Source of the DNA: Chitinophagaceae bacterium
Lineage (GTDB): Bacteria; Bacteroidota; Bacteroidia; Chitinophagales; Chitinophagaceae
Direction of reading: 5' to 3'
DNA: 64,000 bases
Assembly (NCBI GenBank): GCA_023957755.1
Contig: JAMLGT010000001.1
Span: forward strand, 1-64,000
Below the pieces are notes generated by a model, which searched no databases, was not told where the DNA came from, and saw only the letters and a program-made list of their open reading frames with translations. Below, piece by piece: positions 38,305 through 57,916 of the stretch. Each line of letters starts with the position of its first letter. Position 1 is the first letter of the stretch. The translations under genes and the position numbers were made by a program.

Positions 38305-39936
38305 CTACCAGAAAACTGTATATAATGCAGCGAGGATACCACAAATGATTATAGAACCCACCACAAACCCCTGGTTAACCCTAAACATTGATTTATCAAC
38401 CTCAATAACATGGGTATCATGCTCGTCCTTAGGCTTAAGAAGGCTCATCACAACCATTATGGCCACTACCACAAAAAATGTGATTGTCATTCTGTCCAAA
38501 AAAGGATAGTCAGGGAACATTCCATTTGTCCATACAGGAAGGAATTTTAGTGCCGTAGAAACAGGAATAGTCAACAGGGCTCCAGCCATTGCAGCCTGTG
38601 CTGTCGCTTTCTTCCAAAAGAACCCCAGCAGGAAAATGGCCAGCACACCGGGCGATACAAATCCTACATACTCCTGAATAAACTGATATGCCTGATCCAG
38701 CGACTCTAATGCGGGCGTGATGAAAGCCGCAATCACCATTGCTACAATAACAGCTACACGACCCACACGAACTAGTTTCTTCTCTGAAGCTTTCTTATCA
38801 AAATACTTATGATAAATATCCAGCGAGAATATCGTCGAAATACTGTTTGCCTTTCCCGCTAATGATGCCACTACTGCAGCGGTTAATGCCGCAAAAGCTA
38901 CCCCCTTTAATCCTGCAGGCAAAAGATTCATCAGGGTCGGGTATGCATGGTCAGGCTTTACCGTACCCATCGCATCAACCATTTCCGCATGGAATAATCC
39001 TTTATTATACAAAACATACATGGTAATTCCGGGAAGTACTGCTATCACCGGTACTAATAGTTTCAAAAAGGCAGCAAAAAGAATACCCTTCCTCGCAGTC
39101 TTAAGATCTGCTCCCAGCGCTCTCTGGACGATATACTGGTTGCATCCCCAATATGCAAGGTTATTTACCAACATCCCCCCTATCAGCACCGAAATGCCGG
39201 GCAACTCCTTATAGTGAGGATTCGACTTATCAAAAATCATGTGAAAATGCTCCGGAGCTTCTTCTTTTAATATGGACAGGCCTTTCAAAACATTTCCACC
39301 ATATCCGAACTGTTCAGAAAGAAGTGAAAGCCCTAAATATGCAGTGATCAGGCCTCCCACAATCAACACAACCACCTGCACTACATCCGTATAACCGATA
39401 ACCTTCATTCCTCCTAATGTTACAATTATCGAAAAGACCGTCAGCCCGATAATGCCTACTGTAAAACTTATCCCCGAAATTGAAGAAATCGCTAACGCCC
39501 CTAAATAAATGATTGAAGTAAGGTTCACAAACACATAAACAAGCAACCAGAAGACAGCCATTACAGTACTCACCTTGTCGCTGTATCTTGTTGCAAGGAA
39601 CTGAGGCATCGTGTAAATTTTATTCTTCAAATAGATAGGAAGAATAAAAACAGCCACCAGTATCAATGTCGCCGCGGCCATCCATTCATAGGATGAAATT
39701 GCCAGCCCCAACGCAAAGCCGGACCCACTCATTCCGATAAAATGTTCTGCTGAAATATTTGATGCAATCAGAGAGGCACCAATAGCCCACCAGGTCAGGG
39801 ATCCTTCTGCCAGAAAAAAATCTTTGGCCTCCTTCCCGACAATGGCTTTCTTGCGATAAACATAATATCCATAAATAGACACTCCAATAAAGTAAAGGAG
39901 AAATACCAGGTAGTCTGCAGGCTGAAGTGTATTCAA
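38305..39936 (-). CDS. Sodium/solute symporter (SSS family), probable inositol transporter
   Basis: The 543-residue protein has about 13-14 hydrophobic helices and the SGLT/SSS signatures GGMKVIGYTDVVQVVVLIVG and the region around SISTIFSLDIYHKYF. Family members move sugars, inositols, amino acids or vitamins with Na+. Its position, last gene of the collinear inositol cluster 76 bases behind the LacI-type regulator, makes (myo-)inositol the likely substrate. Sequence alone cannot fix substrate. No other inner-membrane transporter is present in the cluster. Confidence 0.85.
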   Translation of the reverse strand: MNTLQPADYLVFLLYFIGVSIYGYYVYRKKAIVGKEAKDFFLAEGSLTWWAIGASLIASNISAEHFIGMSGSGFALGLAISSYEWMAAATLILVAVFILPIYLKNKIYTMPQFLATRYSDKVSTVMAVFWLLVYVFVNLTSIIYLGALAISSISGISFTVGIIGLTVFSIIVTLGGMKVIGYTDVVQVVVLIVGGLITAYLGLSLLSEQFGYGGNVLKGLSILKEEAPEHFHMIFDKSNPHYKELPGISVLIGGMLVNNLAYWGCNQYIVQRALGADLKTARKGILFAAFLKLLVPVIAVLPGITMYVLYNKGLFHAEMVDAMGTVKPDHAYPTLMNLLPAGLKGVAFAALTAAVVASLAGKANSISTIFSLDIYHKYFDKKASEKKLVRVGRVAVIVAMVIAAFITPALESLDQAYQFIQEYVGFVSPGVLAIFLLGFFWKKATAQAAMAGALLTIPVSTALKFLPVWTNGMFPDYPFLDRMTITFFVVVAIMVVMSLLKPKDEHDTHVIEVDKSMFRVNQGFVVGSIIICGILAALYTVFW

Positions 39937-40012
39937 TTTTCTACGATTTAAGAGTTAGTATGTTGGTGATATGATTAATCTATTTATGAGCAAACTTTAA
40001 TTCTACAGATGA

Positions 40013-41041
40013 TTAACTCTTTCTCTTCTCAGGAGTAGATTCCCGAATCACAAGGCTGGGCGTGAGCACCACCTTCTGTGGTTCTTTTTTCTTCTTCTGA
40101 ATCTGCTCCAGCAAGATCTTTACTGCGTTCTTTCCTATACCTTTTATTGGCTGGGAGATAACCGTAATAGCAGGCGAAGAAAGCCTGAAAAGGTTATTGT
40201 CGTCAAAGCAAATGACGCCCAGATCAACACCTACTCTCTTCTTAAGCCTTCTCAGCGCCTCCAGGCCTATTATTCCCAGATTATTAGAGGTAAACAACAC
40301 CGAATCGATATCACCCTTGTCCCTAATAAAATCCTCTATCTCTTTCAAAACTTTTTGAGATGAATATTTGAAGGGAATCTTTTTGACACAATCCGGGTAA
40401 AACGGGATCTTATACTTTCTCAATGAGGCTTTATATCCTTCAAGACGTTCCTGGTGCTGAATTTGCTCTGTATCGCTGGTAATGATTGCAATCTTGCTAT
40501 ATCCCTGTTTTACCAAATGCGCTACGCTGTCGTATGCTCCTTTATAGTTGTCAAGGGTAACCGAACTTGCATTTAAATCCGGGAAAAACCTATCTATTAA
40601 TACATAAGGAGTCCCTCCTTTTTCAAGTTCGCGGATTTCAGGCAGCATACTGTCTGTCGGGGCAATGATATAGCCATCCATTTGCTTCCCAATTAAAGCG
40701 CTTAACACATCCCTTGACTTACCTTCATCGTTCTGGCTGCTGCAAAACATCACCGTGTAACCATACTTGTTCGCTTCTTCTTCAACTGTTTTCGAAATAT
40801 TTCCAAAGAAAAAGTTAGAGATATCGTCCACTATCAACCCAAGGGTATTCGTTTTTCCTGTCCTGAGGCCTTTTGCAAACTGGTTGGGGCTGTAATTGAG
40901 TTCCTTTGCCACCTTCTGAATCTTTTCTATCATCTCCCCGCTAATCTTGCGATCGGGGCCATTCCCATTCAGCACAATAGACACAGTAGTTATAGAAACT
41001 CCTGTTTTTCGGGCAATGTCTTTTATCGATACTTTTTTCAT
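40013..41041 (-). CDS. LacI family transcriptional regulator of the inositol locus
   Basis: The 342-residue protein begins MKKVSIKDIARKTGVSITTV, the canonical LacI helix-turn-helix, followed by the hinge and a periplasmic-binding-protein-like ligand domain (TNTLGLIVDDISNFFFGNIS, IAIITSDTEQIQHQERLEGY, and VICFDDNNLFRLSSPAITVI). The start at 41041 heads the HTH exactly; the frame extends ten residues upstream. It lies between the iolG-like gene and the symporter gene. By context its effector is an inositol derivative and its target the divergent promoter at about 54.8 kb, but this is inference. Confidence 0.88.
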   Translation of the reverse strand: MKKVSIKDIARKTGVSITTVSIVLNGNGPDRKISGEMIEKIQKVAKELNYSPNQFAKGLRTGKTNTLGLIVDDISNFFFGNISKTVEEEANKYGYTVMFCSSQNDEGKSRDVLSALIGKQMDGYIIAPTDSMLPEIRELEKGGTPYVLIDRFFPDLNASSVTLDNYKGAYDSVAHLVKQGYSKIAIITSDTEQIQHQERLEGYKASLRKYKIPFYPDCVKKIPFKYSSQKVLKEIEDFIRDKGDIDSVLFTSNNLGIIGLEALRRLKKRVGVDLGVICFDDNNLFRLSSPAITVISQPIKGIGKNAVKILLEQIQKKKKEPQKVVLTPSLVIRESTPEKRKS

Positions 41042-41171
41042 GTAATTGGTTTTTTCATTTAAAACAACCAAATATCACATATTATAAAAGATAATCGTTA
41101 CACTCAAACTACCTCCACTCAAATCTCTCAATGCTGTTAATAGCCCTATACACCTTGCCACATCTGCCTGT

Positions 41172-42188
41172 TCACCACTCATCCATAATTTCAGACACCA
41201 ATACGGGCCTGTTTTCCTTCAGGGATTTTCGGGCAGCATAGGCAACGGCAGTTGCCGAAATAATATCCTTATCCAGAATCGGAAACTCCGCATCTTTGAC
41301 TAACGCATTCACAAACCCTTTCAGCTCTAACAAATAACTGGTTTCATATCGCTCTGAAAAATTATTCAGAGGAAGGGCCTGACTTATGGAGGATTGGGTA
41401 TAGATCACATTCTGATTATACAGGTTGTTCTCTACAGCGATCATTCCTTTATCACCAAAAATTTCAATTCTCTGATCATAACCATACACTGCCCTTCTGC
41501 TATTATCTATCAGCGCATAGGTATCATCTTCAAATACCAGGTTAATCAGGCAGGTATCTATATCTCCTGCTTCCTCCACTCTCTTATCTATGAAAGCCAT
41601 CCCTCTCGCATAAACTTCCCTAACCTCTTTACCTGAAATGTAGCGGGCCATATCAAAATCGTGAATCGAAAAATCCATAAACATACCCCCCGAATGCTCG
41701 ATAAAGCCAACCGGCGGCAGATCGGGGTCTCTATTGGTAATCTTGATTACCTGAATATCGCCAATCACATTCTTTGTTACAGAATCTCTGGCCTTTGAAA
41801 AATCAGGATCAAACCTTCGGTTGAATCCTATCATGAGTTTCACCCCTCTCTTCTCTGCCTTTTTAAGCAAATCAATTGTAACTGACAGCGAAAGGTCAAG
41901 AGGTTTTTCGCAAAAAATATGCTTGCCTGCTTCCAGAGCTTTTTCTATCAACTCCGCATGTGTACTGGTGGGTGTACAAATAACCACCGCATCAATTTCA
42001 GGCTGTGCAAGGACTTCATCACTATCATTGCTAAAAGCAATACCGGGATATTCTTCTACAAACTTATCCCGTTCGTAAAAACGATCAGAGACCGCCACCA
42101 ACACCGCATCCGGAATTGCCTGGTACAAATGACGCAAATGAATCTTACCCATCCGCCCAAGCCCGATTAATGCTATTTTCCTTTTCAT
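41172..42188 (-). CDS. iolG: Inositol 2-dehydrogenase-like oxidoreductase (IolG family), copy A
   Basis: The 338-residue Gfo/Idh/MocA protein has an N-terminal NAD-binding GLGRMGKIHLRHL, the EKPLDLSLS segment with the catalytic lysine, and DFSIHDFDMARYISG with the aspartate and histidine of inositol dehydrogenases. IolG oxidises myo-inositol to 2-keto-myo-inositol (scyllo-inosose). It is followed by lacI after 130 bases and preceded at 39 bases by a second similar gene. The two may act on different stereoisomers, such as myo- and scyllo- or chiro-inositol. Confidence 0.85.
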   Translation of the reverse strand: MKRKIALIGLGRMGKIHLRHLYQAIPDAVLVAVSDRFYERDKFVEEYPGIAFSNDSDEVLAQPEIDAVVICTPTSTHAELIEKALEAGKHIFCEKPLDLSLSVTIDLLKKAEKRGVKLMIGFNRRFDPDFSKARDSVTKNVIGDIQVIKITNRDPDLPPVGFIEHSGGMFMDFSIHDFDMARYISGKEVREVYARGMAFIDKRVEEAGDIDTCLINLVFEDDTYALIDNSRRAVYGYDQRIEIFGDKGMIAVENNLYNQNVIYTQSSISQALPLNNFSERYETSYLLELKGFVNALVKDAEFPILDKDIISATAVAYAARKSLKENRPVLVSEIMDEW

Positions 42189-42227: not shown

Positions 42228-43259
42228 CTATACAGCTTTTTTAAGAGAAATATCTATTTCACTCAGTCTTACAGGCTCTCCTTTTCGCATTGACATATTC
42301 GCACCATACGCTATCAACGTAGCCTGTAATGCATCTTCAACTCCCGATGGGATTGGTGAATCATTCTGTAACACATCAATAAACGCCTCCATTTCTTTCT
42401 GGTAGGATTTCGAATATCTGTCCATAAAGAAGTCGAGTGGCAGAGCGTGATGAATACCCGTTTCATCGAACAGTACATTCTGATTGTGCAGATTATTCCC
42501 CACACGAATCATACCCCCTTTACCAAAGATTTCAAGCCGTTGATCATACCCATACACGGCCTTCCGGCTATTGTCAATGACTGCATAAGTATCGTCTTCA
42601 AAAATCAGAGTGGTCAATGCAGTATCAATATCTCCGGCTTCTCCCACAGCCTGATCTACCACCACTAACCCTCTTGCATACACTTCTTTTACCTCCTTCC
42701 CCATAATATATCTGGCCATATCAAAGTCATGAATAGCCATATCCATAAATAACCCTCCTGAATTCCTGATATAATCGATGGGGGGCAGTCCCGGATCGCG
42801 GCTGGTTATCTTCACAATCTGAAGGTCTCCTATTCTGCCTTCGCGAACAGACTGACGGGCAAGCATGAAGTCAGGATCAAATCTTCGGTTAAATCCAAGC
42901 ATCAGTTTGACTCCGGATACCTTTGCCATTTCAGCCAGCGATATTGTCCTGCTCAATGAAAGGTCCATAGGCTTTTCGCAAAAAATGTGTTTTCCATTCC
43001 TTGCAGCTAACTCGATCAAATTTGCATGAGAACTTGTCGGCGTACATATCAATACGGCATCAATATCCTGTCTGGTTATCACATCCTGTGCCTCCTGCGA
43101 GAAGAAAAGGCCCGGGTACTCTGCATTAAACCTGGATGCTTCAATTTGCGGATCAGCCACAGCAATAATTCGTGCACCATCAAGATGCTGATTGATATTA
43201 CGGAGGTGAATCCTGCCAATCCTCCCCATTCCCAATAAACCGATTTTAATTTGATTCAT
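42228..43259 (-). CDS. iolG: Inositol 2-dehydrogenase-like oxidoreductase (IolG family), copy B
   Basis: The 343-residue protein is closely related to its neighbour: GLLGMGRIGRIHLRNI, EKPMDLSLSRTIS, GFNRRFDPDFMLARQ, and DMAIHDFDMARYIMGKEVKE with the same Asp/His pair. All catalytic positions seen in copy A are kept, so both should be active. Order and spacing (29 bases after iolE, 39 before copy A) indicate the same transcript. Which copy uses myo-inositol is not decidable from sequence. Confidence 0.85.
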   Translation of the reverse strand: MNQIKIGLLGMGRIGRIHLRNINQHLDGARIIAVADPQIEASRFNAEYPGLFFSQEAQDVITRQDIDAVLICTPTSSHANLIELAARNGKHIFCEKPMDLSLSRTISLAEMAKVSGVKLMLGFNRRFDPDFMLARQSVREGRIGDLQIVKITSRDPGLPPIDYIRNSGGLFMDMAIHDFDMARYIMGKEVKEVYARGLVVVDQAVGEAGDIDTALTTLIFEDDTYAVIDNSRKAVYGYDQRLEIFGKGGMIRVGNNLHNQNVLFDETGIHHALPLDFFMDRYSKSYQKEMEAFIDVLQNDSPIPSGVEDALQATLIAYGANMSMRKGEPVRLSEIDISLKKAV

Positions 43260-43288: not shown

Positions 43289-44200
43289 TCACAATCCGAT
43301 TGACTTCAGGAACAGGCGGTTATTTTCTGCACACTGCTTTGGCTTACCCATTCCCGGTAACACATCCTGCTCCACTACAATCCAGCCATTATATCCTTTA
43401 TTTTCAATAAACTCTTTAATAGAAGCAAAGTCCACATCGCCCTTACCCAACTCACAGAATACGCCGTGCTGAACGGATTGGAAATAATCCCATCCATTCC
43501 TCACAGAATCCCGCGCTACTTCAGGAGAGAAATCTTTGAAATGTATATGCCATACGCGATCCCAATATTTTTCAAGCAACCCCAGCGGTTTGCTTCCACC
43601 GCCGAAACGATAGTGCCCGGTGTCAAAACAAAGGCCTACCAACCCGGGGTCTGTCAGTTGCATAAACCAGTCAATTTCTTCAGGAGTTTCAATATATCCA
43701 CCACAATGGTGATGAAACACTGTACGCATCCCATATCGGGATTTTACTTCATGCGCAACCTTCTCTGCCCCCCGCGCAAATGTTTTCATCTGCGCTTCAT
43801 CCGGTTTCATTGTATTATCAATTCTTCCGGCATTCTTTGTCCTCACTTCCACAGTTCCATTGTCATCTGCCAACACAATGAATGCATCCTTATAACCAGC
43901 CTCATTCATCAGGCCTGCCACCTTCAGCGCTTTTTCCACTCCTGATTCATGGGCTGCTGCATCCGAAAGAGCCACCGGGACAAAAGCTCCCAGCAGGCTG
44001 AGTTGTCGTTTCGATATCTCAGAATGAAGCCTTGTCGGATCTGTGGGCATAAACCCCCAATCGCCAAGCTCGGTTCCGATATAACCTGTTTCAGCTATCT
44101 CATCTAATACCTGACTATAACCGACAGCCTTTCCTTCTAAATCAAACTCCAATGCTCCCCACGAACATGGTGCATTTGCAATCTTTATTTTTCCTTCCAT
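43289..44200 (-). CDS. iolE: Inosose dehydratase
   Basis: IolE removes water from 2-keto-myo-inositol to give 3D-trihydroxycyclohexane-1,2-dione. The 303-residue protein is a TIM-barrel isomerase-type enzyme: IANAPCSWGALEFD near the start, GYIGTELGDWGF, TVFHHHCGGYIETPEE with metal ligands, LCFDTGHYRFGG, HIHFKDFSP and WIVVEQD. I placed the start at 44200 (MEGKIKI), eight bases from the mmsA stop; an ATG at 44227 overlaps that gene. It is in the usual position within the iol operon. Confidence 0.9.
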   Translation of the reverse strand: MEGKIKIANAPCSWGALEFDLEGKAVGYSQVLDEIAETGYIGTELGDWGFMPTDPTRLHSEISKRQLSLLGAFVPVALSDAAAHESGVEKALKVAGLMNEAGYKDAFIVLADDNGTVEVRTKNAGRIDNTMKPDEAQMKTFARGAEKVAHEVKSRYGMRTVFHHHCGGYIETPEEIDWFMQLTDPGLVGLCFDTGHYRFGGGSKPLGLLEKYWDRVWHIHFKDFSPEVARDSVRNGWDYFQSVQHGVFCELGKGDVDFASIKEFIENKGYNGWIVVEQDVLPGMGKPKQCAENNRLFLKSIGL

Positions 44201-44208
44201 AGTTTTTA

Positions 44209-45681
44209 TTAAAATTTTCTTGTCCATTCCTTCGGCCAGCGTTCAATAACCACTTTAGTCTGAGTAAAGAATTCTATTGCATGACGGCTCTGCCCATGCA
44301 GATCACCAAAAAAGCTATCCTTCCATCCGCTAAAAGGAAACTGAGCCATCGGTGCAGCTACCCCTATGTTAATCCCCACATTACCGGCCATCGCCTGATT
44401 TCTGAATTTTCTTGCACTTGCCCCACTGCTGGTAAACAAGCAGGCCATATTTCCGAATTTTCCTCTGTTTATATAGGCAATTGCGTCCTCCACGGTCTTC
44501 ATGTGGAGCAAACTCATCACCGGCCCGAATATTTCTGTTTTCAACAGCTCGCCCTCCAGAGGAAGATTCTCAATGATAGTAGGCCTGATGAAATTCCCCT
44601 GTTCATACCCTTTTATAGTCGCACTTCTACCATCTAGTAAAACAGCACCTCCCTCTTTCTCTCCCTGCGCTATGAGCCCCTCAATCCGCGATTTGCTTTC
44701 ACGGGTGATAACAGGCCCCATTTCAACACCCTGATTCAACCCATACCCTACACTCCGTGCTTTTGATGATTCATACAATGCTTCTCTGATCTTTTTGTTG
44801 TCATCTACTGTGATGACAACTGATGCAGCCAGACAGCGCTGTCCGGCACATCCATACACACTATCACTGATAATTTGTGAAGTCATTTCAATATCTGCGT
44901 CAGGCAAAACCACCACAGGATTCTTTGCCCCTCCCTGAGCCTGCACCCTCTTACCGGATGCTGCTGCACGTGAATACACATATCTAGCTACAGGCGTGCT
45001 TCCTACAAAGCTGACAGACTTAATATCAGGATGATCCAGTATCGCATCTACTGAGGCTTTGCCCCCATGCACCATATTTAGCAGCCCTTTTGGTATATCC
45101 AACTGGTCAATGAGTTCGAAAATCTTCATCATTGTCAAAGGCACTTTCTCTGAAGGCTTTACCACCATACTGTTTCCACAGGCAATGGCATACGGCAAAA
45201 ACCAAAAAGAAATCATAGCAGGAAAATTAAAAGGCGCAATGCACGCCGTAACTCCGAGTGCCTGCCGAATCATGTATTCATCAATACCTGTGGCTACATT
45301 CTCGAGAAATTCGCTTTGCAGTAACATCGGTGCCGCGGAGGCTACTTCTACATTTTCAATAGCCCTCTGTATCTCCCCTTTCGACTCTGCGAGTGTTTTG
45401 CCTGATTCCATGGTAATGGTAGCTGCCAGTTCATCAGTATGCTGCTCCAGCAAATATTTCAACTTAAAAAGAGGCTGAATCCTTTTTAAAACAGGAAGGT
45501 CTTTCCATGCCAGATAGGCTTCATGTGCGCAGGCCACCGCACGTTCCACATCAGATGCGGTCTTGTCACCTGTAGGTACTTTGGCCAGCACCTCCATTGT
45601 AGCCGGGTTAATTACATCAAGAGTCTCGCCAGACACGCTATCTACCCACTCCCCATTGATATAGTTTTTAAGAATGTTCAT
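44209..45681 (-). CDS. mmsA: Methylmalonate-semialdehyde dehydrogenase (IolA/MmsA)
   Basis: This CoA-acylating aldehyde dehydrogenase converts malonate semialdehyde, the last product of inositol breakdown, to acetyl-CoA and CO2. The 490-residue protein has the family blocks [34 protein letters not shown], the NAD motif [13 protein letters not shown], the catalytic cysteine in GCAGQRCLA, and the C-terminal [18 protein letters not shown]. The [12 protein letters not shown] and GGAKNPVV segments match MmsA more than generic ALDHs. It is between iolD (18 bases) and iolE. Confidence 0.93.
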
Positions 45682-45699: not shown

Positions 45700-47565
45700 T
45701 TACAGATAATATTTTTGCTTTCTTTTGTTTTGTTTCATTTTTTCAAAACCTGCTTTGACCGTCTTCACGGTCGAAACCTGTGCAATCGGCACTTCCCACC
45801 AGGCATATCCCTCCACGCTTTTTTCCCTTGGGGTTTCAATGTAAATCACTGTGGTCTTTTCAATCTTTTTAGCCTCTGCCAGTGCAGCCTCAAACTCATC
45901 CATCGTTTTCGTCCGAAACACCTGTGCACCCAGGCTTTCCGCATTAGTTGCCAGATCTACCGGCAGATTACCTCCCGTAAGCTTACCCGTTTTTGCGCTC
46001 CTAAACCTGTACTCTGTGCCAAACCTCTGTGTACCCAAAGAGGACGACAACCCCCCTATGCTTGCGTATCCATGATTATTAATCAGGATAATTGTAAGTT
46101 TATAACCCTCCTGAATAGACGTGACTATCTCCTGTGCAAGCATCAGATAACTGCCATCACCTACCATCACATATATCTCCCTGGAAGGGGCCGCCATTTT
46201 TGCCCCCAGTCCTCCGGCAATCTCATATCCCATACAAGAATATCCATACTCCAGATGGAATCCTTTATTATTCCGGGTTCTCCAAAGTTTATGGAGATCG
46301 CCCGGCAGGCTGCCGGCCGCACACAGTACCACATCCTCCGGTGCTGAAAAATTATTCACTGCACCGATAACCTCTCCCTGGGTAGGATGCATTCTGTCTG
46401 CAGGTGTATATATCCGGTCCACAGTACTGTCCCAATCCTGATTCGCCTTTCGAACTCTCACATCATAGGATTTTGGCACTCTAAAATCTTTCAGTTGTCT
46501 GATGAGTTCTCTGATAGTTTCACGTGCATCGCTAACCAGCGACAAGGCCCCCTGTTTGTGCGAATCAAATTCAGAGATATTGATATTGATAAACTGCACC
46601 TTGGGATTTTGGAACCCTCCCTGGGATACTGAAGTAAAGTCGCTGTACCTCGTGCCGATACCAATTACCAAATCTGCTTTTTCACAGGCTTCAATGGCTC
46701 CGGGTGTACCTGTCACACCTACGGCTCCCAGGTTTTGTGGTTCATTATAATTAAGGCTGCCCTTTCCTGCATAAGTCTCCACCACGGGAATACCTGTCAT
46801 ATTTACCAGCTTCTTTAGCTCGTCACAAGCTTCACTATAAATTACACCTCCACCCGCAATGATTACAGGACTTTTGGAACGGGTTATCAATTCAGTTGCC
46901 TTTTTCAGCAATTCTTTATCCGCTCTCGGCCTGGCAATATGCCATACTTTCTTACTGAAAAAATCTACCGGAAAATCATGAGCTTCAGCCTGCACATCCT
47001 GTGGCATTGCAAGCGTAACTGCGCCTGTTTCTGCAGGAGAGGTAAGAATTCGCATAGCCTGCTGCAACGCAGAAATCAACTGCTCCGGCCGGTTAATCCT
47101 GTCCCAATATTTGGAAACCGGTTTAAAGGCATCATTAACAGATATGTCTTTTGAATACTGATATTCCAATTGTTGCAGTACGGGGTCAACCAGCCTGCTG
47201 GCAAAAAAATCTGAAGGCAGAAGGAGTACAGGCAATCTGTTTATGGTTGCCGTAGCAGCACCTGTTACCATATTTGTAGCTCCGGGGCCTATGGATGATG
47301 TGCATACGAATGCTCCCATCCTGTTTTTGACTTTTGCATACGCTGTGGCCGTATGTACCATAGCCTGCTCATTCCTCACCTGGTAATACCTGAATTTGGG
47401 ATTCTGGAACAAAGCCTCTCCAATTCCCCCTACATTCCCATGACCAAATATGCCAAGGCAACCGGCAAAGAAAGGCATCACCTTTCCATCTCTTTCGACA
47501 TACTGATTTTGCAGGAATTCTATCGTAGCCTGCGCAGTAGTAAGTCTCCTGGTTTTTATTGCCAT
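45700..47565 (-). CDS. iolD: 3D-(3,5/4)-trihydroxycyclohexane-1,2-dione hydrolase
   Basis: IolD is the thiamine diphosphate enzyme that opens the inositol ring to 5-deoxy-glucuronate. The 621-residue protein is full length with ThDP fold landmarks: FGHGNVGGIGEAL and RNEQAMVHTATAYAK at the start, IAGGGVIYSEA in the middle domain, EYGYSCMGYEIAGGLGAKMA, and the ThDP-binding MVGDGSYLMLAQEI followed by NNHGYASIGGLS. It lies 18 bases upstream of mmsA and 117 after iolC. Confidence 0.94.
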   Translation of the reverse strand: MAIKTRRLTTAQATIEFLQNQYVERDGKVMPFFAGCLGIFGHGNVGGIGEALFQNPKFRYYQVRNEQAMVHTATAYAKVKNRMGAFVCTSSIGPGATNMVTGAATATINRLPVLLLPSDFFASRLVDPVLQQLEYQYSKDISVNDAFKPVSKYWDRINRPEQLISALQQAMRILTSPAETGAVTLAMPQDVQAEAHDFPVDFFSKKVWHIARPRADKELLKKATELITRSKSPVIIAGGGVIYSEACDELKKLVNMTGIPVVETYAGKGSLNYNEPQNLGAVGVTGTPGAIEACEKADLVIGIGTRYSDFTSVSQGGFQNPKVQFININISEFDSHKQGALSLVSDARETIRELIRQLKDFRVPKSYDVRVRKANQDWDSTVDRIYTPADRMHPTQGEVIGAVNNFSAPEDVVLCAAGSLPGDLHKLWRTRNNKGFHLEYGYSCMGYEIAGGLGAKMAAPSREIYVMVGDGSYLMLAQEIVTSIQEGYKLTIILINNHGYASIGGLSSSLGTQRFGTEYRFRSAKTGKLTGGNLPVDLATNAESLGAQVFRTKTMDEFEAALAEAKKIEKTTVIYIETPREKSVEGYAWWEVPIAQVSTVKTVKAGFEKMKQNKRKQKYYL

Positions 47566-48699: not shown

Positions 48700-49577
48700 T
48701 GGTTATTCATTGAGGCATTCACTATCGGCAATCTTGGATCTCGCCCTTTCCATGAGTTAAAAATCCAGGAATGGTCAGTATCCGGGGTATTAGCCAGCGA
48801 CTGGTCACTCCCTGCCAGGAAATTCAGATAATAACAATTATATCCGGGCGCTGCCACCACCGGATGGTAGCCCCTGGGAACCAGTACTGCATCACTGTTT
48901 CGTAACTGCATCAGTTCATCCAGACTTCCGTCAGTAGTATAAACCTGCTGAATAGCATATCCTGTGGGTTTATCTATCTTATAAAAGTATATTTCTTCAA
49001 GGCGGGCCTCCAGCAGGTTGCCATTTTCATCCACCTTTCTTTCATCATGTTTATGTGCGGGGTATGAGCTCCAGTTTCCAGATGGCGTATACACTTCTAC
49101 TGCCACAATTTTGCTGCTTCCAAATCCCGGTTCTACCAGGCTGTTGATCTGCCTGGTAGCATTATCGCCGCCACGAATTTCAATTGCTGCCTCCTCCGGC
49201 TTTTTAAACCTTGCCGGGAAATCCTGTTCGGCATGGCACCACCCTGCGGCGATATCCAAATCACCTCCTACAGCTTTTAATTCAAAGGTGGTATTCTTCG
49301 GCAGGTAGAGTGTATGGGCAATCCCTTCAAACACACTCTTTCTGCCATTGGCTGTATTCCATTCACCTCTGTTCGTGGTCGCCGTATAATTTCCACTCAG
49401 CAGGACAAAGGCATATTCATTGTCTCCTGTATCCCCACTCCACACCTCTCCGAGCCGAAGAAGTCTGGCCTCGAAATTCAAAGAATCCCATCCGGCGTCT
49501 TCTGTTGTTATCCTTTGGTAAACACCATAAGTACCTGTAGGATTCTTAACCAGCTTATATTTCTTTCTGTTTTCCAT
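48696..49577 (-). CDS. iolB: 5-deoxy-glucuronate isomerase
   Basis: IolB isomerises 5-deoxy-glucuronate to 2-deoxy-5-keto-gluconate. From the ATG at 49577 (MENRKKYKLV) the protein has 293 residues, a double-cupin with YPAHKHDERK carrying metal ligands, LEEIYFYKI, AVLVPRGYHPVVAAPGYNCY, and a C-terminal DPRLPIV that is a family feature. ATGs upstream (49586 and 49691) would overlap the aldolase gene. It is translationally linked to iolC. Confidence 0.92.
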   Translation of the reverse strand: MENRKKYKLVKNPTGTYGVYQRITTEDAGWDSLNFEARLLRLGEVWSGDTGDNEYAFVLLSGNYTATTNRGEWNTANGRKSVFEGIAHTLYLPKNTTFELKAVGGDLDIAAGWCHAEQDFPARFKKPEEAAIEIRGGDNATRQINSLVEPGFGSSKIVAVEVYTPSGNWSSYPAHKHDERKVDENGNLLEARLEEIYFYKIDKPTGYAIQQVYTTDGSLDELMQLRNSDAVLVPRGYHPVVAAPGYNCYYLNFLAGSDQSLANTPDTDHSWIFNSWKGRDPRLPIVNASMNNQ

Positions 49578-49578
49578 T

Positions 49579-50523
49579 CTAATCATGTTTGACAGATCCT
49601 GCCTTTCCCAGGCAACCCAAGACTTCAAATCGCTGAATAATAAAATCAACATATTCGCGTATATAGGCCTTGCCCGGAATTGTGGGATCAAATAACTCAG
49701 GGCTTTCGCTAAAAAACCGGCGATGCACCTTAGTCCACAATAACCTTAAATCGGTTGCGATATTAACCTTGCAAACACCGAACTGCACGGCTTTTCTTAT
49801 TTCTTCATCGCTCACGCCACGACTATCCCTCAGAAGATTACCACCATAATGATTAATTTCATCTATTACCCCCTTACTCACGTTAGATGCGCCATGAAGC
49901 ACCAATGGAAATCCGGGGAGTTCATTCTGAATTTCAGACAGTACATCAAATTGCAATCCTTTTCCTCCACTGAATTTATATGCACCATGACTGGTACCTA
50001 CGGCTACGGCTAGGCTGGTACAATCGGTCATGCGCACAAATTCAGCAGCCTGCAATGGGTCCGTATATCTTGCCTTGCTTTCATCCACGCTCAGATCATC
50101 TTCAACTCCGCTCAACACTCCAAGTTCAGCCTCTACAGCTACTCTTTTCTTTTTAGCTTCTTTTACTACCTCAACTGTTCTCCGTACATTTTCTTCAAAC
50201 GTATCATGAGAGGCATCAATCATCACAGATGTGTAGCCTTCATTTATTGCCGCAAATGCGTGCGCCTCGTTCCCATGATCTAAATGGAGTGCATACACGG
50301 CTTTATTATAAATATTAGAAGCAGACATCACCATTCCCAAAAGCATCTCAGGAGTGGCATAATTCCTTGCCGCCGGTGTAATTTGTACGATAACAGGAGT
50401 GTTTGATTGCTGAGCCGCCTCAAACAAACCCAGCACCTGCTCCATGGTAAAAACATTTACCGCAGGAACTGCATATCGGCCATAACAGTGCCTGAATAAT
50501 ATTTCCGGTGAAATTGGTTTCAT
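49579..50523 (-). CDS. iolJ: Class II aldolase, 6-phospho-5-dehydro-2-deoxygluconate aldolase
   Basis: A 314-residue zinc-dependent class II aldolase: VQITPAARNYA, the metal histidine segment ALHLDHGNEAHAFAAINEG, SVMIDASHDTFEENV, AVEAELGVLSGVED, AVGTSHGAYKF, and VLHGASNVSKG. The general family includes fructose-bisphosphate aldolases; its place directly ahead of iolB-iolC points to IolJ, which splits the phosphorylated deoxyketogluconate into malonate semialdehyde and dihydroxyacetone phosphate. Confidence 0.88.
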   Translation of the reverse strand: MKPISPEILFRHCYGRYAVPAVNVFTMEQVLGLFEAAQQSNTPVIVQITPAARNYATPEMLLGMVMSASNIYNKAVYALHLDHGNEAHAFAAINEGYTSVMIDASHDTFEENVRRTVEVVKEAKKKRVAVEAELGVLSGVEDDLSVDESKARYTDPLQAAEFVRMTDCTSLAVAVGTSHGAYKFSGGKGLQFDVLSEIQNELPGFPLVLHGASNVSKGVIDEINHYGGNLLRDSRGVSDEEIRKAVQFGVCKVNIATDLRLLWTKVHRRFFSESPELFDPTIPGKAYIREYVDFIIQRFEVLGCLGKAGSVKHD

Positions 50524-51965: not shown

Positions 51966-54755
51966 TTAGAGCTTAAACCGCACCCCTAACAAATAGTTTG
52001 CGCCGTAAATATCTTTCCGTACAAACGCATTCTTTCCGGCTTCCTGCAGCGGCACCACATCAGCCTTAGCCTGCGTCACCTTTTGTCTTATCTCCAGTTC
52101 ATACGGTGTATTCAGGATGTTATTGATTTTTGTAAATACAGCCATCTCTTTAATCACTCTCACCTCTGCTGAGAAATCGAGTTGTACAAATCCTTTTTGC
52201 CAGATATCATTATCCAGGAAAGGAGATACTGTATTAATCCTGGCTCCCGTGTACACTCCTGCCAATTGCAGATCTATTCCCCTCTTGCTATTCTTATAGA
52301 GCAAAGAGAGATTCCCAATATGTTTGGATTGCCCCTGCAACGGACGCGTCTGATCTACCTCTTCCTGAGTAAGTGTGCTGCTGCCGCCTTCTGTCTTTTG
52401 GAAACGGCGTACTTTAGAAGTGGTAATACTGCTTTGGGTGAATGTGTAATTTGCTTTGATACCAAACGAATGGAAGTACTTTGTCATATCAAACTCGATC
52501 CCGTAATTAGAACCTGTACCAAAATTATCGGGCGAATAGTAAGTGGCATTTGCACCTCTTTCTACAATAGCATACTCGATCGGATTATTAATCCTTTTGA
52601 AGAAAAGTCCTACAAGAATCTGATCAAGTCCTTTTGGAAAGTATTCATATCTTAAATCAAAGTTCTCGGCTGTAGTCCTCTTCAGATAAGGGTTTCCTTG
52701 TTCAGGATAGTCAGAAATACCATCGTCAAACGTATGCGGTGTTACTTCGTAGAATCCCGGCCTGCTTATGGATGAGAAATAAGATAACCTCAGAAATTGC
52801 TTCGTGCTGAGCCTGTATTTTATCCCCACACTTGGCAGGATGTCATAATACTTTATAGACCCCTCCGCTCCCTCTACTGTCTTGGGGGCTGAAGTCACCC
52901 AGTTAAAATCTGTATTCTCATACCTTGCTCCGGCAACTACCTGAAGATTTTCTGTTTCTATTTTTGCCATCGCATAAAATGCTCCCACCTTTTCGTATGC
53001 CTTATAATTCAGAGGATCTGAACTGCTTCCCTGTGGGTTAAATACAGAGAAAGTATTGGCTGCTGCGTCCCCATTATAAAGCTGGGGGCTTGGTGTCGGC
53101 CTTATATTATATTTGTCATAATCACTGTTACGATTCTTATCTCTGTACATTCCACCAAACGACCAATCTACCTTGGTATTGGCAATTATGCTCTTATAGG
53201 TAAAGTTTAAATACCCACTCTTATCTTCGTCCTTATTACGTCCCCAGTCGCGGAAGGTACTATTGTCAAGGTATTCAGGTTGTTGCACTAGCTTCCCGGA
53301 GTTATCTTTTATTACACCAGTAGAAGTGACCAGATTTCCCCTGTCGGGCTGATTACCGGTAGCCTTGGAATACACAGCCGACCAGTTCATTGAAAATTCC
53401 TGCGAAATACTGTGTTCTCCCTGGAGAGAGACGTTAAATATATTTTGAATCTGGCGAGAGGTTCTTCTGTTATTGACTACCCGGCCCGTACCTGCTCCCG
53501 TACGGCCAAGCACCAGTCCTGTATCAGAGTGAAACCTGAATTGGTTTTCTGCAAGCGTCACATTTCCCACATAGAGCTTAAGCTTGTTCATCGGGTTCAT
53601 AACATAATCTAACCTCAGGTGGGCGCCTCCTCTGTTTTGTTGCACGGAATAATTCCTGCCAATTATCTTGGCAAATGAAACAGAATTATCTACTCTGTCT
53701 GTCTCAGTGGTAAACGAGGTAGAGGTAATATACCTATACGAATTCTGGTAACTACCTGCTACCAGGATTCCAAGTTTATTATTAAAGACCCTGCCCCCCA
53801 TCGATAAATTGAAATTTGTGGCCATTGGCGGAGCTGATGCTTTGGTCTTAAATGGGCTGACATCAAAATCTGACATCGTGGCCAGATAGCTTTCACCATT
53901 CTTTATACGGGGAGATAAGGTCGAACTATTTTTGTGGTTGAAACTGCTGAACTTATTGCCATCCCAGAATGTCTGCGCATATCCCACAGCCGCACTGCCT
54001 TTAACAGAAAATCTTTCAGGCGCATCCTTCATTACCATATTTACTACGCCACCTATAGCATCTCCCTCCATGTTGGGAGTTAACGATTTGGTCACTTCGA
54101 GCCTTTCGAGCAAGTCAGAAGGAAAGATGTCTAACGGCACATACCTGTTCTTGTTGTCGGGGCTCGGAATCTTGATACCATTAATAAGCGTATAATTATA
54201 TCTCTTCTCCATTCCGCGCACAATTGCATATTGTCCTTCTCCGTTGCTGCTGCGTTGCAGACTTACTCCGGATACACGCTGGCTGACATTGGCTACCGAA
54301 AGATCCGGTGAGATCTCAATGGTTTTAGCCGATACAGCATTGATCACATTGTCCGATCTTCGTTCAATCTGTGAAGTGATGTAATCACTTCGGTCCGTTT
54401 TTCCGACTACGACCACGTTTTCAAGTTGTGCCCCTTCTCTGTCGAGAGAAAAATCCAATGTCTCATTTTCTCCTCCGGAAACGGTGACATTTTGTTTTAC
54501 GGCAACATACCCTACGTAGGTCACTTCAACTTCATAAGAACCTGCTTTAAGTGATTTAACAGCATAAGTTCCGTCAAGCCCGGAAAGCACTGTGGCAGTC
54601 CTTCCGTTTTGGGCCTTTTCAATAAACTTCACTACAGCTCCCTGAAGCGGCTCGCCACTGCTCTTTTCTATAACCGAGCCCTTTATCTGGCCGGTAACAG
54701 TCATCGAAAAGAGCATCGCTACTGAGGCTAAAGTGGATAAAATAAATTTCTGCAT
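51966..54755 (-). CDS. TonB-dependent receptor with carboxypeptidase-like N-terminal domain
   Basis: The 929-residue outer membrane transporter starts with a signal peptide (FILSTLASVAMLFSMTVTGQ), a carboxypeptidase-regulatory-like domain (GSVIEKSSGEPLQGAVVKFI), then a plug (VVVVGKTDRSDYITSQIERR, VSGVSLQRSSNGEGQYAIVR, GIKIPSPDNKNRYVPLDIFP) and a C-terminal barrel ending in LLGVRFKL. It is the first gene of the twelve-gene inositol cluster and is divergent from two extracytoplasmic phosphatases. Inositol phosphates or a related ligand are therefore the likely substrate, though TonB receptors are not substrate-predictable by sequence. Confidence 0.88.
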   Translation of the reverse strand: MQKFILSTLASVAMLFSMTVTGQIKGSVIEKSSGEPLQGAVVKFIEKAQNGRTATVLSGLDGTYAVKSLKAGSYEVEVTYVGYVAVKQNVTVSGGENETLDFSLDREGAQLENVVVVGKTDRSDYITSQIERRSDNVINAVSAKTIEISPDLSVANVSQRVSGVSLQRSSNGEGQYAIVRGMEKRYNYTLINGIKIPSPDNKNRYVPLDIFPSDLLERLEVTKSLTPNMEGDAIGGVVNMVMKDAPERFSVKGSAAVGYAQTFWDGNKFSSFNHKNSSTLSPRIKNGESYLATMSDFDVSPFKTKASAPPMATNFNLSMGGRVFNNKLGILVAGSYQNSYRYITSTSFTTETDRVDNSVSFAKIIGRNYSVQQNRGGAHLRLDYVMNPMNKLKLYVGNVTLAENQFRFHSDTGLVLGRTGAGTGRVVNNRRTSRQIQNIFNVSLQGEHSISQEFSMNWSAVYSKATGNQPDRGNLVTSTGVIKDNSGKLVQQPEYLDNSTFRDWGRNKDEDKSGYLNFTYKSIIANTKVDWSFGGMYRDKNRNSDYDKYNIRPTPSPQLYNGDAAANTFSVFNPQGSSSDPLNYKAYEKVGAFYAMAKIETENLQVVAGARYENTDFNWVTSAPKTVEGAEGSIKYYDILPSVGIKYRLSTKQFLRLSYFSSISRPGFYEVTPHTFDDGISDYPEQGNPYLKRTTAENFDLRYEYFPKGLDQILVGLFFKRINNPIEYAIVERGANATYYSPDNFGTGSNYGIEFDMTKYFHSFGIKANYTFTQSSITTSKVRRFQKTEGGSSTLTQEEVDQTRPLQGQSKHIGNLSLLYKNSKRGIDLQLAGVYTGARINTVSPFLDNDIWQKGFVQLDFSAEVRVIKEMAVFTKINNILNTPYELEIRQKVTQAKADVVPLQEAGKNAFVRKDIYGANYLLGVRFKL

Positions 54756-54806
54756 GTCAGTTATTTTTTTGTCAGGAAATCAGAAAAAACTCCAAAATTC
54801 TTAAGT

Positions 54807-54828
54807 AAAACGTTTTGGTATAACGTTA
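54807..54828. promoter_or_regulatory. Candidate operator of the inositol/phytate locus
   Basis: AAAACGTTTT (54807-54816) and TAACGTTA (54821-54828) are perfect palindromes centred on CG, spaced 13 bases centre to centre. LacI family operators are commonly A/T-rich palindromes with a central CG. They sit in the 120-base divergent gap between the TonB receptor and the PafA-type gene, and a LacI-type regulator is encoded in the cluster. Binding is inference. Confidence 0.4.
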
Positions 54829-54875
54829 AACTATCGTAAGTTTATCAAAATTTTTTAATTGACCAAATTTATTTT

Positions 54876-56510
54876 ATGAAAAGAGTAATAATCCTGTCTT
54901 TCTTATTTGCAGCTTCCCTGCAAATATTTGGGCAGAAAAATGAAGGAGGCTTCAACCTGGAACGCCCCAAACTGGTAGTGGGCATTATGCTGGATCAAAT
55001 GCGGCTTGATTACTTCTATCGCTACTATGATTCCTATAAACCTAACGGAGGGTTCAGGAGACTCTTATCAGAAGGTTTCTCATGTGAAAATGCCATAATT
55101 CCTTATGCACAGACGGTAACCGCAGTAGGCCACTCAAGTGTATATACCGGATCAGTACCCGCCTTTACGGGGATCATCGCCAATGAATGGTATAGCAAAG
55201 AAAAAGGGCGCACTGTGTATTGTGCAGAAGATAATGGTGTGAAAATCCTGGGAGGAACCGACTCATCAAAGCCCATGTCGCCCAAAAACTTATGGACAAC
55301 GACGATGACCGACGAGCTCAGGCTGGCAACCAATTTCAAAAGCAAGGTCATAGGCGTTGCCATCAAGGACCGGGCAAGCATTCTCCCTTCGGGCCACACC
55401 GCCAATGCCGCCTATTGGTACGATGACCTGAGCGGCAACTGGATATCCTCTACATATTATATGGATAAACTTCCTGACTGGGTAAAGAAATTCAATGATA
55501 GAAAACTGGTGGACAGCTTTTACAGAATAGGCTGGAATACACTTGCACCCATAACACAATACACACAAAGCACAAGCGACAACAAGAGCTATGAAGGAAA
55601 GTACAACGACGATGCCACAGTTACCTTCCCTCACAAGTTTACTGCCATGATCGGCAAAGACTACAAAGCTATCCGAGCCACACCCTATGGAAACACTCTC
55701 ACCTTAATGATAGCTAAAAAAATACTCGAAGAAGAAAATCTTGGAAACAGAGGGGTTACAGATTTTCTAAACCTCAGCCTTTCCTCCACAGATGTAATCG
55801 GACACATGTACGGACCCAATTCAATAGAGGTAGAGGATGTGTACAGGCGGGTCGATATCGAGCTGGGACAATTTCTGGATGAGCTTGACAAGCGGGTAGG
55901 GAAAGGCAATTATCTCTTGTTCCTGACTGCCGACCATGCTGCCACTCAGGCTCCGGGATTTCTAAAAGAAAATAAATTGCCTGGCAATGCCATTACTTCC
56001 CCCACCAAAGAACTAAATGCGGCTATCCGTGAGAAGTTTGGAATTGCTGATGCCGTAATCAATACGTATGCATATCAGGTTTACCTCAATGACCCCGCCC
56101 TTTCGAACGCTAAAATTAAAAAGAGCAAGGTGGCAGACTTTATCATAGATTATCTGAATGCAAAAGATGAAGTCTATTTAGCCTATAACACTGAAGATAT
56201 TAATGAACTCAATCTTCCTACCGAGATAAAAGAGCGTTTTTTAAAAGGGTTCAACCCTAAACTCAGCGGCGATATTCAGATTATCATGAAGCCGGGGCAT
56301 CTTTATGGAAGTGAGACCGGAACCAACCACGGACTCTGGTATCCTTACGATTCGCATATTCCCTTAATGTTTTATGGATGGAAAGTGAAACCCGGGCAAC
56401 TAAACAGGGAGGTATATATGACTGATATTGCAGCTACCATCACCTCTATGCTACATATCCAAATGCCCAGTGGATGTATTGGGAAACCAATTTTTGAGGT
56501 GTGGAAATGA
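54876..56510 (+). CDS. pafA: PafA-type alkaline phosphatase
   Basis: This 544-residue secreted protein belongs to the alkaline phosphatase superfamily and looks like PafA, a broad phosphomonoesterase common in Bacteroidota. A signal peptide covers residues 1-19. The candidate nucleophile is Thr82 in AQTVTAVGHSS; Asn103 (IIANEW), Lys164 and Arg166 (AIKDRASIL) match the other PafA active-site residues in kind and spacing. Metal ligands appear in GIMLDQMR, LTADHAATQAPGF and TNHGLWYPYDSHIPLMFYG. It is divergent from the TonB receptor and followed 65 bases later by a phytase-like phosphatase, so it likely removes phosphate from inositol phosphates outside the cytoplasm. Confidence 0.85.
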   Translation: MKRVIILSFLFAASLQIFGQKNEGGFNLERPKLVVGIMLDQMRLDYFYRYYDSYKPNGGFRRLLSEGFSCENAIIPYAQTVTAVGHSSVYTGSVPAFTGIIANEWYSKEKGRTVYCAEDNGVKILGGTDSSKPMSPKNLWTTTMTDELRLATNFKSKVIGVAIKDRASILPSGHTANAAYWYDDLSGNWISSTYYMDKLPDWVKKFNDRKLVDSFYRIGWNTLAPITQYTQSTSDNKSYEGKYNDDATVTFPHKFTAMIGKDYKAIRATPYGNTLTLMIAKKILEEENLGNRGVTDFLNLSLSSTDVIGHMYGPNSIEVEDVYRRVDIELGQFLDELDKRVGKGNYLLFLTADHAATQAPGFLKENKLPGNAITSPTKELNAAIREKFGIADAVINTYAYQVYLNDPALSNAKIKKSKVADFIIDYLNAKDEVYLAYNTEDINELNLPTEIKERFLKGFNPKLSGDIQIIMKPGHLYGSETGTNHGLWYPYDSHIPLMFYGWKVKPGQLNREVYMTDIAATITSMLHIQMPSGCIGKPIFEVWK

Positions 56511-56575
56511 ATTTTGAACTTGCCCACGCAGGTTACTTTTTGAATTTATCTTTAATACAGCAAAAAAAACTCTAT

Positions 56576-57916
56576 ATGTTAAGAAAGTTTGCCTCATTAC
56601 TCGCAATACTCTTCAGTACATTGGGAAGCACCGGCCAACAGGTGCTTCCTTCTTACCTTGGCTCAAAAACCCTGTATCAATGTCAACAGGAACACTATAC
56701 TCCACCGCCACAAGGATATGCTCCCGTATTCATTAACCACGTGGGAAGGCATGGCGCCAGGCATCTTACCAAAGATGTCGCTTCTTCACTTGCATTCACG
56801 CTTCTGCAAAAAGCAGACAGCGCAGGGGCGCTTACTCCTAATGGAAAACGCCTTAAAGAAATGGTGACTAAACTCGAAAGAGTAGAAAAATCTGATGTGG
56901 AATCTATATCATACGAAGGCGGAACAGAACAGGAGCTGATTGCCGAAAGGGCTTATAAAAATTATCTGCCGGTTTTTGATCAGCCTCATCCTAAATTTTC
57001 CGTTACTGTGACAAAGAAGAAAAGGACTTCCCAAACCGCAGATGCTTTTTTATCGGGCCTAAGCAAGCTGATGACACTTCCCCACATCGAAAAAAAAGTA
57101 AACGATACCACACTTCGGTTCTACGACCTCTCCCCCGTATATGTCCAATTTGACGAAGAGGGCAATTGGACCACAGCTATCGAGGAGCTTAAAAAGGCAC
57201 ACCACTATGAGTCACTGACAACAAGGTTTACCCAACAATTTTTCACTCCCGATTTCTTTAAGAAACTTAAGAATAAGGACTGTGCTAAGTTTACCGACAA
57301 TATATTCGGATTTGAATCTATCCTCTTCTCAATAAGAAAAGAAATTGCCGACCACGGATATAGTGCATCAGACATCAGTTTCTCTGAGTTTTTCGACTGT
57401 AATGATCTGGAGACTCTGGGAAGAATCGACGATGCTGAAGATTTCTTAGTAAAAGGGCCCGGACAGAACAATATGGGAATTCAGGTTAAGATTGCGGTTC
57501 CTCTACTTGCCGATTTTATCAACTCCACAGATACCTACATTCGCTCAAAGCCAATAGATGTGCAATTAAGGTTCACCCATGCGGAAGCTATTGCTCCTTA
57601 TGCAGCACTGCTGGGCGTCAGCGGAGCTAGCGAATCTACAGACATCATAGGCAATTACAGTAAATATTGGGATGCGGCCAGGGTAATTCCGCTGAGTTCA
57701 AATATTCAATGGGTATTGTACAAGAAAAAAGGGAAAAAGAAATATCTGGTGAAGGTGTTACTAAATGAAAAAGAGGTGGCCATCACAGGCCTGAGCACTG
57801 ACACCTTTCCATACTATAATTGGAAAGATCTCAGATCTTTCTATAAGAAGAGAATTGCGCAACTGGGGAGCAGTCTCAACGAAAATGGATATCAATACCT
57901 GCTGCGGACAAAATAA
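56576..57916 (+). CDS. Histidine phosphatase of MINPP type (phytase)
   Basis: The start at 56576 heads a signal peptide (MLRKFASLLAILFSTLGSTG) and gives 446 residues; the frame open from 56501 overlaps pafA and is not a likely start. The active site is RHGAR (residues 58-62), the branch 2 histidine phosphatase nucleophile, and the proton-donor motif is HAE (residues 335-337) in RFTHAEAIAPYAAL. HAE in place of HD is the mark of multiple inositol polyphosphate phosphatases, which include bacterial phytases. Given the adjacent inositol catabolic cluster, dephosphorylation of phytate to inositol and phosphate in the periplasm or outside is a strong prediction. Confidence 0.85.
   Translation: MLRKFASLLAILFSTLGSTGQQVLPSYLGSKTLYQCQQEHYTPPPQGYAPVFINHVGRHGARHLTKDVASSLAFTLLQKADSAGALTPNGKRLKEMVTKLERVEKSDVESISYEGGTEQELIAERAYKNYLPVFDQPHPKFSVTVTKKKRTSQTADAFLSGLSKLMTLPHIEKKVNDTTLRFYDLSPVYVQFDEEGNWTTAIEELKKAHHYESLTTRFTQQFFTPDFFKKLKNKDCAKFTDNIFGFESILFSIRKEIADHGYSASDISFSEFFDCNDLETLGRIDDAEDFLVKGPGQNNMGIQVKIAVPLLADFINSTDTYIRSKPIDVQLRFTHAEAIAPYAALLGVSGASESTDIIGNYSKYWDAARVIPLSSNIQWVLYKKKGKKKYLVKVLLNEKEVAITGLSTDTFPYYNWKDLRSFYKKRIAQLGSSLNENGYQYLLRTK

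Follow-up and report, generated by a model that had tools for sequence, protein, structure and literature searches.

We identified a putative phytate utilisation locus in the first 64,000 nucleotides of contig JAMLGT010000001.1 (assembly GCA_023957755.1, Chitinophagaceae bacterium), a stretch of DNA referred to below as the window. The locus (positions 38305-57916) joins a TonB-dependent receptor (TBDT), a surface lipoprotein (LP), a MINPP-type inositol polyphosphate phosphatase and a PafA-type phosphatase to an inositol catabolic (iol) operon. It is probably a phytate-to-carbon utilisation system, in which an importer module of the kind regulated by phosphate (Pho) has been joined to the iol operon under a putative LacI operator. 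Phytate is a very large soil organic-phosphorus pool, commonly regarded as a source of phosphorus. If our reading is true, a locus that uses phytate for its carbon would set phosphate free even where it is already abundant, and expectations for phosphorus cycling in soil and feed would change.

The 14 genes of the locus are open reading frames, 12 on the minus strand (38305-54755) and two on the plus strand (54876-57916), and their strands and profile matches bear out the initial annotation, which had described a 12-gene minus-strand run divergent from pafA and a MINPP gene (Table 1). The minus arm encodes an SSF symporter, a LacI-family regulator, two IolG proteins, an IolE-like protein, MmsA, IolD, IolC, IolB, a class II aldolase, LP and TBDT. 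Gene identities come from Pfam and NCBIfam profile searches, and MINPP and PafA were also compared with the sequences of solved structures. TBDT, LP and iolJ are consecutive genes of the same strand, separated by 44 and 57 bases, and the divergent region between TBDT and pafA is 120 bases long. The genome of the window comprises 3.67 Mb in 35 contigs. Window positions 41969-59998 (18,032 aligned bases) share 95.5% DNA identity with a second assembly, Chitinophagaceae bacterium BROCD012 (L102), a metagenome-assembled genome that is the nearest named relative; gene order from MINPP to iolG is unchanged there, and the stretch compared stops before lacI and the symporter gene. Because of this second assembly and a related cluster in a third genome, G077, the locus is not an assembly accident.

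The link to phytate comes from the TBDT-LP pair. When named genomes were scanned with a TBDT alignment, the best 80 of 155 relatives were retained (the 80 named loci). LP adjoins TBDT in all 80, and a phytase lies near the pair in 73: MINPP in 16 and a beta-propeller phytase in 57, with neither phytase detected by the query set used in the other seven, which include short contigs. The loci whose TBDT is at least 50% identical to that of the window (16) are exactly the MINPP-type loci. The window locus follows the same plan, with a TBDT beside a beta-helix lipoprotein and a phytase near by. That two unrelated phytases use one uptake pair points to phytate as the common cargo, and TBDT-LP is a candidate outer-membrane phytate transporter pair across Bacteroidota. 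Instead of phytate, the true substrate might be lower inositol phosphates or the phosphorylated head groups of inositol lipids from plants or microbes, and the Iol enzymes would still be fed. The Minpp of Bacteroides thetaiotaomicron (BtMinpp) is described as acting on lower inositol phosphates too (PMC3969271), and the glycosidase or SusCD front ends seen on other iol operons of the family would fit inositol glycosides. We consider this alternative unlikely, since the same pair also accompanies the beta-propeller enzyme and phytate is the substrate common to both non-homologous phytases.

Within our sample of 147 genomes of the family, nine others carry MINPP, and TBDT and LP lie within the same stretch in eight of them, seven without iol genes. 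No TBDT-LP pair was found in the stretches around the six iol loci without MINPP in that sample. LP relatives occur in 40 of the 147 genomes, and in 40 further LP stretches TBDT adjoins LP while the next genes vary. Ten LP-neighbour proteins were scanned: five gave phosphatase-type matches, including calcineurin-like, PF04185 and beta-propeller phytase types (one, an endonuclease/phosphatase, under its cut-off), two had no match and three were of metallo-beta-lactamase, thioredoxin and beta-propeller types. In several genomes the gene immediately after TBDT-LP belongs to a separate, uncharacterised protein cluster, c5 (for example L086:7716-8702), whose scanned member has no Pfam match.

LP itself has no Pfam or NCBIfam match. 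Its AlphaFold2 model, built from 33 of the available sequences and omitting the L102 protein, whose frame is shorter, is all-beta with a mean pLDDT of 88, and its best PDB matches are beta-helix proteins, weakly so (none at E<=0.001, the best at 1.2e-3, TM about 0.2-0.4). The lipobox cysteine is followed by HKEE, which we take to resemble the surface-export signal of Bacteroidota, and CHK[EAS]E is common to most MINPP-type LPs. An enzymatic role was considered and set aside: LP has no solved-structure sequence match at E<=1, and its fold is only weakly like that of pectin-lyase-type beta-helices. LP is a putative binding protein. We also rejected a SusCD polysaccharide utilisation locus, as LP matches no SusD model and TBDT no SusC model; the best NCBIfam match of TBDT is TIGR01782 at 276 bits, under the cut-off of 310.

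The regulatory sequences of iol-linked and other loci differ. Upstream of TBDT in loci without iol genes we found a direct repeat with an 11-bp period, present as GGTAACAATTTGKTAATG in 10 of 13 MINPP-type loci. A KTAAY-N6-KTAAY pair occurs in 13/13 MINPP-type, 42/55 propeller-type and 1/7 other upstreams against 83/693 controls; three of the 80 loci (one MINPP-type, two propeller-type) have no usable upstream, and the controls include upstreams that share the TBDT intergenic region and nearby genes, so their 12% may be inflated. At periods of 8-10 and 12-14 the same element reaches at most 5/13, 8/55 and 27/693. In a first survey the repeat was seen in 18/40 TBDT upstreams, compared with 15/271 controls and a shuffle mean of 2.05/40; the motif had been suggested by G114, G096 and G067, of which G114 did not score in that survey. 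No such pair was found in window positions 54501-55000, nor upstream of TBDT in L102 or in the G077 locus (L103), and the Pho-box-like repeat is thus missing from the window locus (Fisher p 0.0095 within MINPP loci, with related loci treated as independent).

This 11-bp repeat is probably a Pho box, because of its place beside phosphate genes. Contig 5 of the window genome has it immediately ahead of genes for a PF12850 phosphoesterase and a glycosyltransferase, after which come a 391-aa gene, a pstS-type gene, three pst-like genes and phoU; a triple repeat also precedes a further TonB receptor and a lipoprotein-like gene beside the pst region (L243:3144-7175). In G009 the repeat precedes a PF12850 gene, and in G026 one gene separates it from pstS. 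Genes for the PF12850 protein PlcP, a glycosyltransferase and TBDT-lipoprotein pairs have been reported to respond to phosphate depletion in Flavobacterium johnsoniae (PMC8115612), and TTTAACA forms the most conserved bases of the PhoP motif described in Riemerella (PMC9603813).

Between the two arms of the locus lies a 25-bp operator-like near-palindrome that is common to other iol promoters. In G077, TTAAACGTTTTAGTAAAACGTTTAA stands upstream of TBDT, and in G008 a form with three mismatches stands upstream of iolJ. The pattern TTAAACGTTTTANTAAAACGTTTAA, allowing up to four mismatches, gave four sites in 1,108,342 bases (window, G077, G008 and G084, the last about 0.3 kb upstream of a SusC-like gene ahead of the iol genes), and no match in any of eight simulated sets. 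All four loci encode an orthologous LacI with their iol genes, and its TTVSIVLNG segment is identical in all of them. At up to six mismatches the palindrome was not found in the iol loci with other LacI proteins (G028, G123 and G045). Across the window genome the pattern occurs once at up to three mismatches, the IUPAC pattern having been written to include that site. Among the named TBDT loci, up to five mismatches give 2/2 iol-linked and 0/78 other loci (Fisher p 0.0003, again treating related loci as independent). By its distribution and conservation the palindrome is a putative operator of the iol LacI, whose repression an inositol product may relieve.

Two alternatives bear on these regulatory sites. 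The palindrome may be the site of a different LacI/GalR regulator, such as a catabolite regulator, in which case the phosphatases would have no specific tie to inositol. CG-centred AAACGTTT palindromes are common sites of the LacI family, and single AAACGTTT-type palindromes stand upstream of iol genes in the three genomes with other LacI proteins. This seems quite unlikely to us given that the 25-bp double form goes with the orthologous, iol-embedded LacI in 4/4 loci. Alternatively, the TBDT-LP-MINPP-PafA part could still be a phosphorus scavenger that merely adjoins an iol operon for free inositol. Its relatives carry the Pho-box-like repeats and resemble the low-phosphate units described in F. 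johnsoniae (PMC8115612), and 14 of the 16 MINPP-type loci have no iol genes in their flanks, iol genes being near TBDT-LP in only 2/80 named loci. We regard a plain scavenger as quite unlikely, since the repeat is absent from both iol-linked loci although the window genome has it elsewhere, and since TBDT, LP and iolJ form a tight run on one strand with the iol-type palindrome in the shared promoter.

We therefore return to a phytate importer joined to inositol catabolism, and to how it may have arisen. The iol-linked TBDT, LP and MINPP proteins are sisters in trees (support 100/100, 99/96 and 90/87, L102 standing for the window). The Pho-like repeats of their sister group and of most propeller-type relatives suggest, by parsimony over few events, that Pho control is the older state. 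We lean towards a history in which a TBDT-LP-phytase module of phosphate starvation was captured once by the inositol-catabolic regulon: in the common ancestor of the window and G077 lineages it would have been joined to an iol operon, losing its Pho box and gaining the iol operator, and the window lineage would also have acquired a phosphatase insensitive to phosphate. The outcome would be a locus that resembles a polysaccharide utilisation locus and consumes phytate for its carbon. In this respect it offers a case for testing whether regulation was rewired from phosphorus control to carbon control.

From gene content, conservation and the distribution of operator and repeat, we infer the binding, induction, substrate flow and growth that such a system would involve. 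The surface beta-helix LP and TBDT would capture phytate, or partly dephosphorylated inositol phosphates, and pass them to the periplasm. Judged by eye, the signal peptides of MINPP and PafA contain no lipobox; both enzymes are therefore probably periplasmic, so that uptake would precede full dephosphorylation. In the periplasm MINPP would strip most phosphates and PafA would finish; the Na+ symporter, the presumed inner-membrane importer of inositol, would carry the product inside, and IolG, IolE, IolD, IolB, IolC, IolJ and MmsA would convert it to central metabolites. LacI may repress both arms from the one palindromic operator until inositol or an intermediate releases it. Six phosphates are set free per inositol, so carbon use needs phytate uptake freed from phosphate repression and from product inhibition, and the changed promoter and the PafA type would fit this: a studied relative of PafA is reported not to be inhibited by phosphate (PMC8812569). 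The initial annotation had proposed that phytate, or lower inositol phosphates, is taken from outside and stripped of phosphate, and that the inositol is imported and burned; the association of TBDT-LP with phytases, the Iol set and the shared palindrome favour this in part, with uptake now probably placed before full dephosphorylation.

Several observations weigh against this account. The junction is found in two lineages only, and the regulatory contrast thus rests on n=2. The palindrome was first noticed in three of its four supporting loci, leaving G084 as the independent one. The G077 locus has MINPP upstream of the operator, behind a separate intergenic region shared with SusC, and is therefore not governed throughout by one operator. 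Linkage of PafA is confined to the window and its 95.5% relative, the IolE score falls short of the model cut-off, and the final proline is missing from the MINPP fingerprint. MINPPs often halt at lower inositol phosphates, and the release of free inositol is a proposal. As to the Pho box, the repeat stands upstream of only 3/30 pstS-like hits, 29 of which are under the family cut-off, and the genome-wide count of triple repeats (41, against 26 for a reversed control, in seven genomes) is a modest excess, with none in G077. Of ten chosen stretches read, three (L243, L244 and L249) were covered by a domain scan and have phosphate-type genes beside the repeat; no phosphate link is apparent in L245, L248, L250 and L252.

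The combination is rare. In the family sample, MINPP is present in 10 genomes and IolD over its cut-off in 8, the window genome being in both counts, and the two occur together in 2/147, the window genome and G077, where about 8 kb separate them. In a phylum sample of 395 genomes, MINPP was found in 6, IolC over its cut-off in 21 and both in the window genome only. MINPP occurs in 5/298 genomes of the order sample and in 3/20 of the genus sample (the window's, one 95% identical and one 27%). The initial annotation had named neighbourhoods where phosphatases and iol genes never co-occur as a sign against its reading; they do co-occur in relatives, but seldom. A plasmid search gave distant MINPPs only (11 records, <60% identity) and no LP.

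G077 (L103) is labelled Williamsia sp. E01 and is placed in the window's family, at odds with that label; L103 and L114, which is labelled Nostoc, both fall among Bacteroidota in trees, and the two contigs are possibly mislabelled or contaminant records. The G077 phytate/iol locus also has a SusC/SusD-like pair attached, and the SusC/MINPP intergenic region (L042:9701-9960) holds a second, different LacI-like near-palindrome, TTTACGAAAACGCTTTCGTAAA. Other iol loci of the family have different neighbours: GH88 and DUF4861 in G084 (L048), an alpha-galactosidase-like gene in G045 (L047), and GH92, NAGLU, GH28 and a metallophosphatase in G072 (L049). The front ends of iol loci may be exchangeable modules that take up inositol glycosides or glycosylated inositol lipids.

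Among the enzymes of the locus, MINPP carries HAE, a proton-donor motif that replaces the HD of phytases, in agreement with the initial annotation, which had noted a MINPP-type phosphatase with the HAE motif. HAE and LRFY (with the equivalent of R183, R206 in the window protein) are present in 16/16 MINPP-type loci, as is RHG[AS]R; the window protein reads RHGARHL, without the final P of the RHGxRxP fingerprint. Its match 4fdt is the solved Minpp of B. thetaiotaomicron, and the NCBIfam search gave no match for it. Homologues place its start probably at 56576, not 56501, which leaves 65 bases between pafA and the MINPP gene. MINPP and LP each give a single match in the window genome and PafA gives two, the second PafA being 48% identical and on contig C9. 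In the alignment to 5tj3 the PafA of the locus retains the TVTA, N-x-W-Y and KDRASILP segments, presumably active-site segments, and it falls within the curated PafA family. A complete Iol pathway had been annotated, and the set is indeed complete but for a weak IolE score: five models are over their cut-offs (IolG twice), IolE stays under its own, and the class II aldolase is IolJ-like at superfamily level only, with no iolJ-specific match in the NCBIfam search. Homologues of IolB align from about residue 33-58 of the longest open reading frame, so that its start is probably near 49574 and the iolJ/iolB overlap is a longest-frame artefact. LacI orthologues are encoded in the iol loci of G077, G084 and G008. 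Divergent genes for cyanophycinase and cyanophycin synthetase adjoin the locus at window positions 34153-37858.

Table 1. Features of the putative phytate utilisation locus, in window positions.
Feature	Position	Strand	Evidence
Na+:solute symporter (SSF), presumed inositol importer	38305..39936	-	PF00474 E 3e-65; 81% identical SSF in G084 iol locus
LacI-family regulator	40013..41071, likely start near 41041	-	PF00356/PF13377
IolG-type inositol 2-dehydrogenase, copy 1	41172..42188	-	TIGR04380 395 bits, cut-off 355
IolG-type inositol 2-dehydrogenase, copy 2	42228..43259	-	TIGR04380 417 bits, cut-off 355
IolE-like inosose dehydratase	43289..44227	-	TIGR04379 203 bits, under cut-off 290; relatives in iol loci
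MmsA/IolA CoA-acylating semialdehyde dehydrogenase	44209..45681	-	TIGR01722 548 bits, cut-off 448.5
IolD	45700..47565	-	TIGR04377 903 bits, cut-off 715
IolC	47683..48699	-	TIGR04382 378 bits, cut-off 300
IolB	48696..49691, likely start near 49574	-	TIGR04378 317 bits, cut-off 205
IolJ-type class II aldolase	49579..50523	-	PF01116 E 2e-77
Surface lipoprotein LP, predicted beta-helix	50581..51921	-	Sequence (Cys21 then HKEE); AlphaFold2 model; TBDT adjacency
TonB-dependent receptor TBDT, first gene of iol arm	51966..54755	-	Plug, barrel, CarboxypepD_reg
Operator-like 25-bp near-palindrome TAAAACGTTTTGGTATAACGTTAAA	54806..54830		50 bases from TBDT start codon, 45 from that of pafA
PafA-type phosphatase	54876..56510	+	NF042991 719 bits, cut-off 650; solved PafA 5tj3 E 6e-168
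MINPP-type inositol polyphosphate phosphatase, signal peptide	56576..57916	+	PF00328 (His_Phos_2); 4fdt E 3e-44

Our literature search, which had full texts and most subscription journals outside its scope, gave no described cluster joining a TBDT, a phytase and iol genes. The components of the locus are known; their junction, and the altered regulatory site, appear to be new. The initial annotation knew of no described Bacteroidota system with all these parts in one cluster; a unit of TBDT with phytase or lipoprotein is by itself a known type of phosphate-starvation system (PMC8115612), so that what is unusual is its joining to iol and the changed site. The low-phosphate TBDT units of that species comprise a phytase/TBDT pair (Fjoh_1367-1368) and TBDTs with polygalacturonase/pectate-lyase-like lipoproteins, FI/FII (PMC8115612). 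They share with the window a TBDT accompanied by a phytase or a pectin-lyase-type lipoprotein, and outer-membrane uptake of organic phosphorus has been proposed for them; LP is likened to FI/FII by description, not by sequence. The F. johnsoniae units are induced by phosphate depletion and the accessible part of that paper does not mention iol genes, whereas the window has a full iol operon, a LacI-type palindrome and no Pho-like repeat. Caulobacter ElpS (cc0170) is similarly comparable by description, being a phosphate-starvation lipoprotein beside the TonB receptor cc0171, but unlike LP it is tied to alkaline phosphatase activity and type II secretion (PMC2996285).

Mitsuokella jalaludinii, which has both phytase and inositol genes, is described as using phytate as its only source of carbon and energy (PMC7618129). 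There, however, the phytase MJ_0021 is constitutive, its gene number is distant from that of the inositol transporter MJ_0380, and TonB uptake is not mentioned in the available portion of the report. BtMinpp resembles the MINPP of the window in its signal peptide, RHGxR and HAE, and was found in the periplasm; it differs in also being packaged in vesicles, and a link to inositol catabolism is not mentioned in the sections of that article at hand (PMC3969271). According to Weber and Fuchs, iol clusters occur in 3% of Bacteroidetes species, in Flavobacteriaceae, Weeksellaceae and Spirosomaceae, with no phytase link in the accessible text of the survey (PMC9430895). Chitinophagaceae lies outside these three families, and eight of our 147 genomes have IolD over its cut-off. 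The locus shares the core order B-C-D-E reported for some Bacteroidetes classes (PMC9430895), here with mmsA before E.

Finally, the locus is like the SusCD polysaccharide utilisation loci of Bacteroidota in its plan of outer-membrane capture, periplasmic breakdown, import and a local regulator. It differs from them in that its lipoprotein matches no SusD model and its receptor no SusC model, and in its presumed cargo, which is a polyphosphate and not a glycan.

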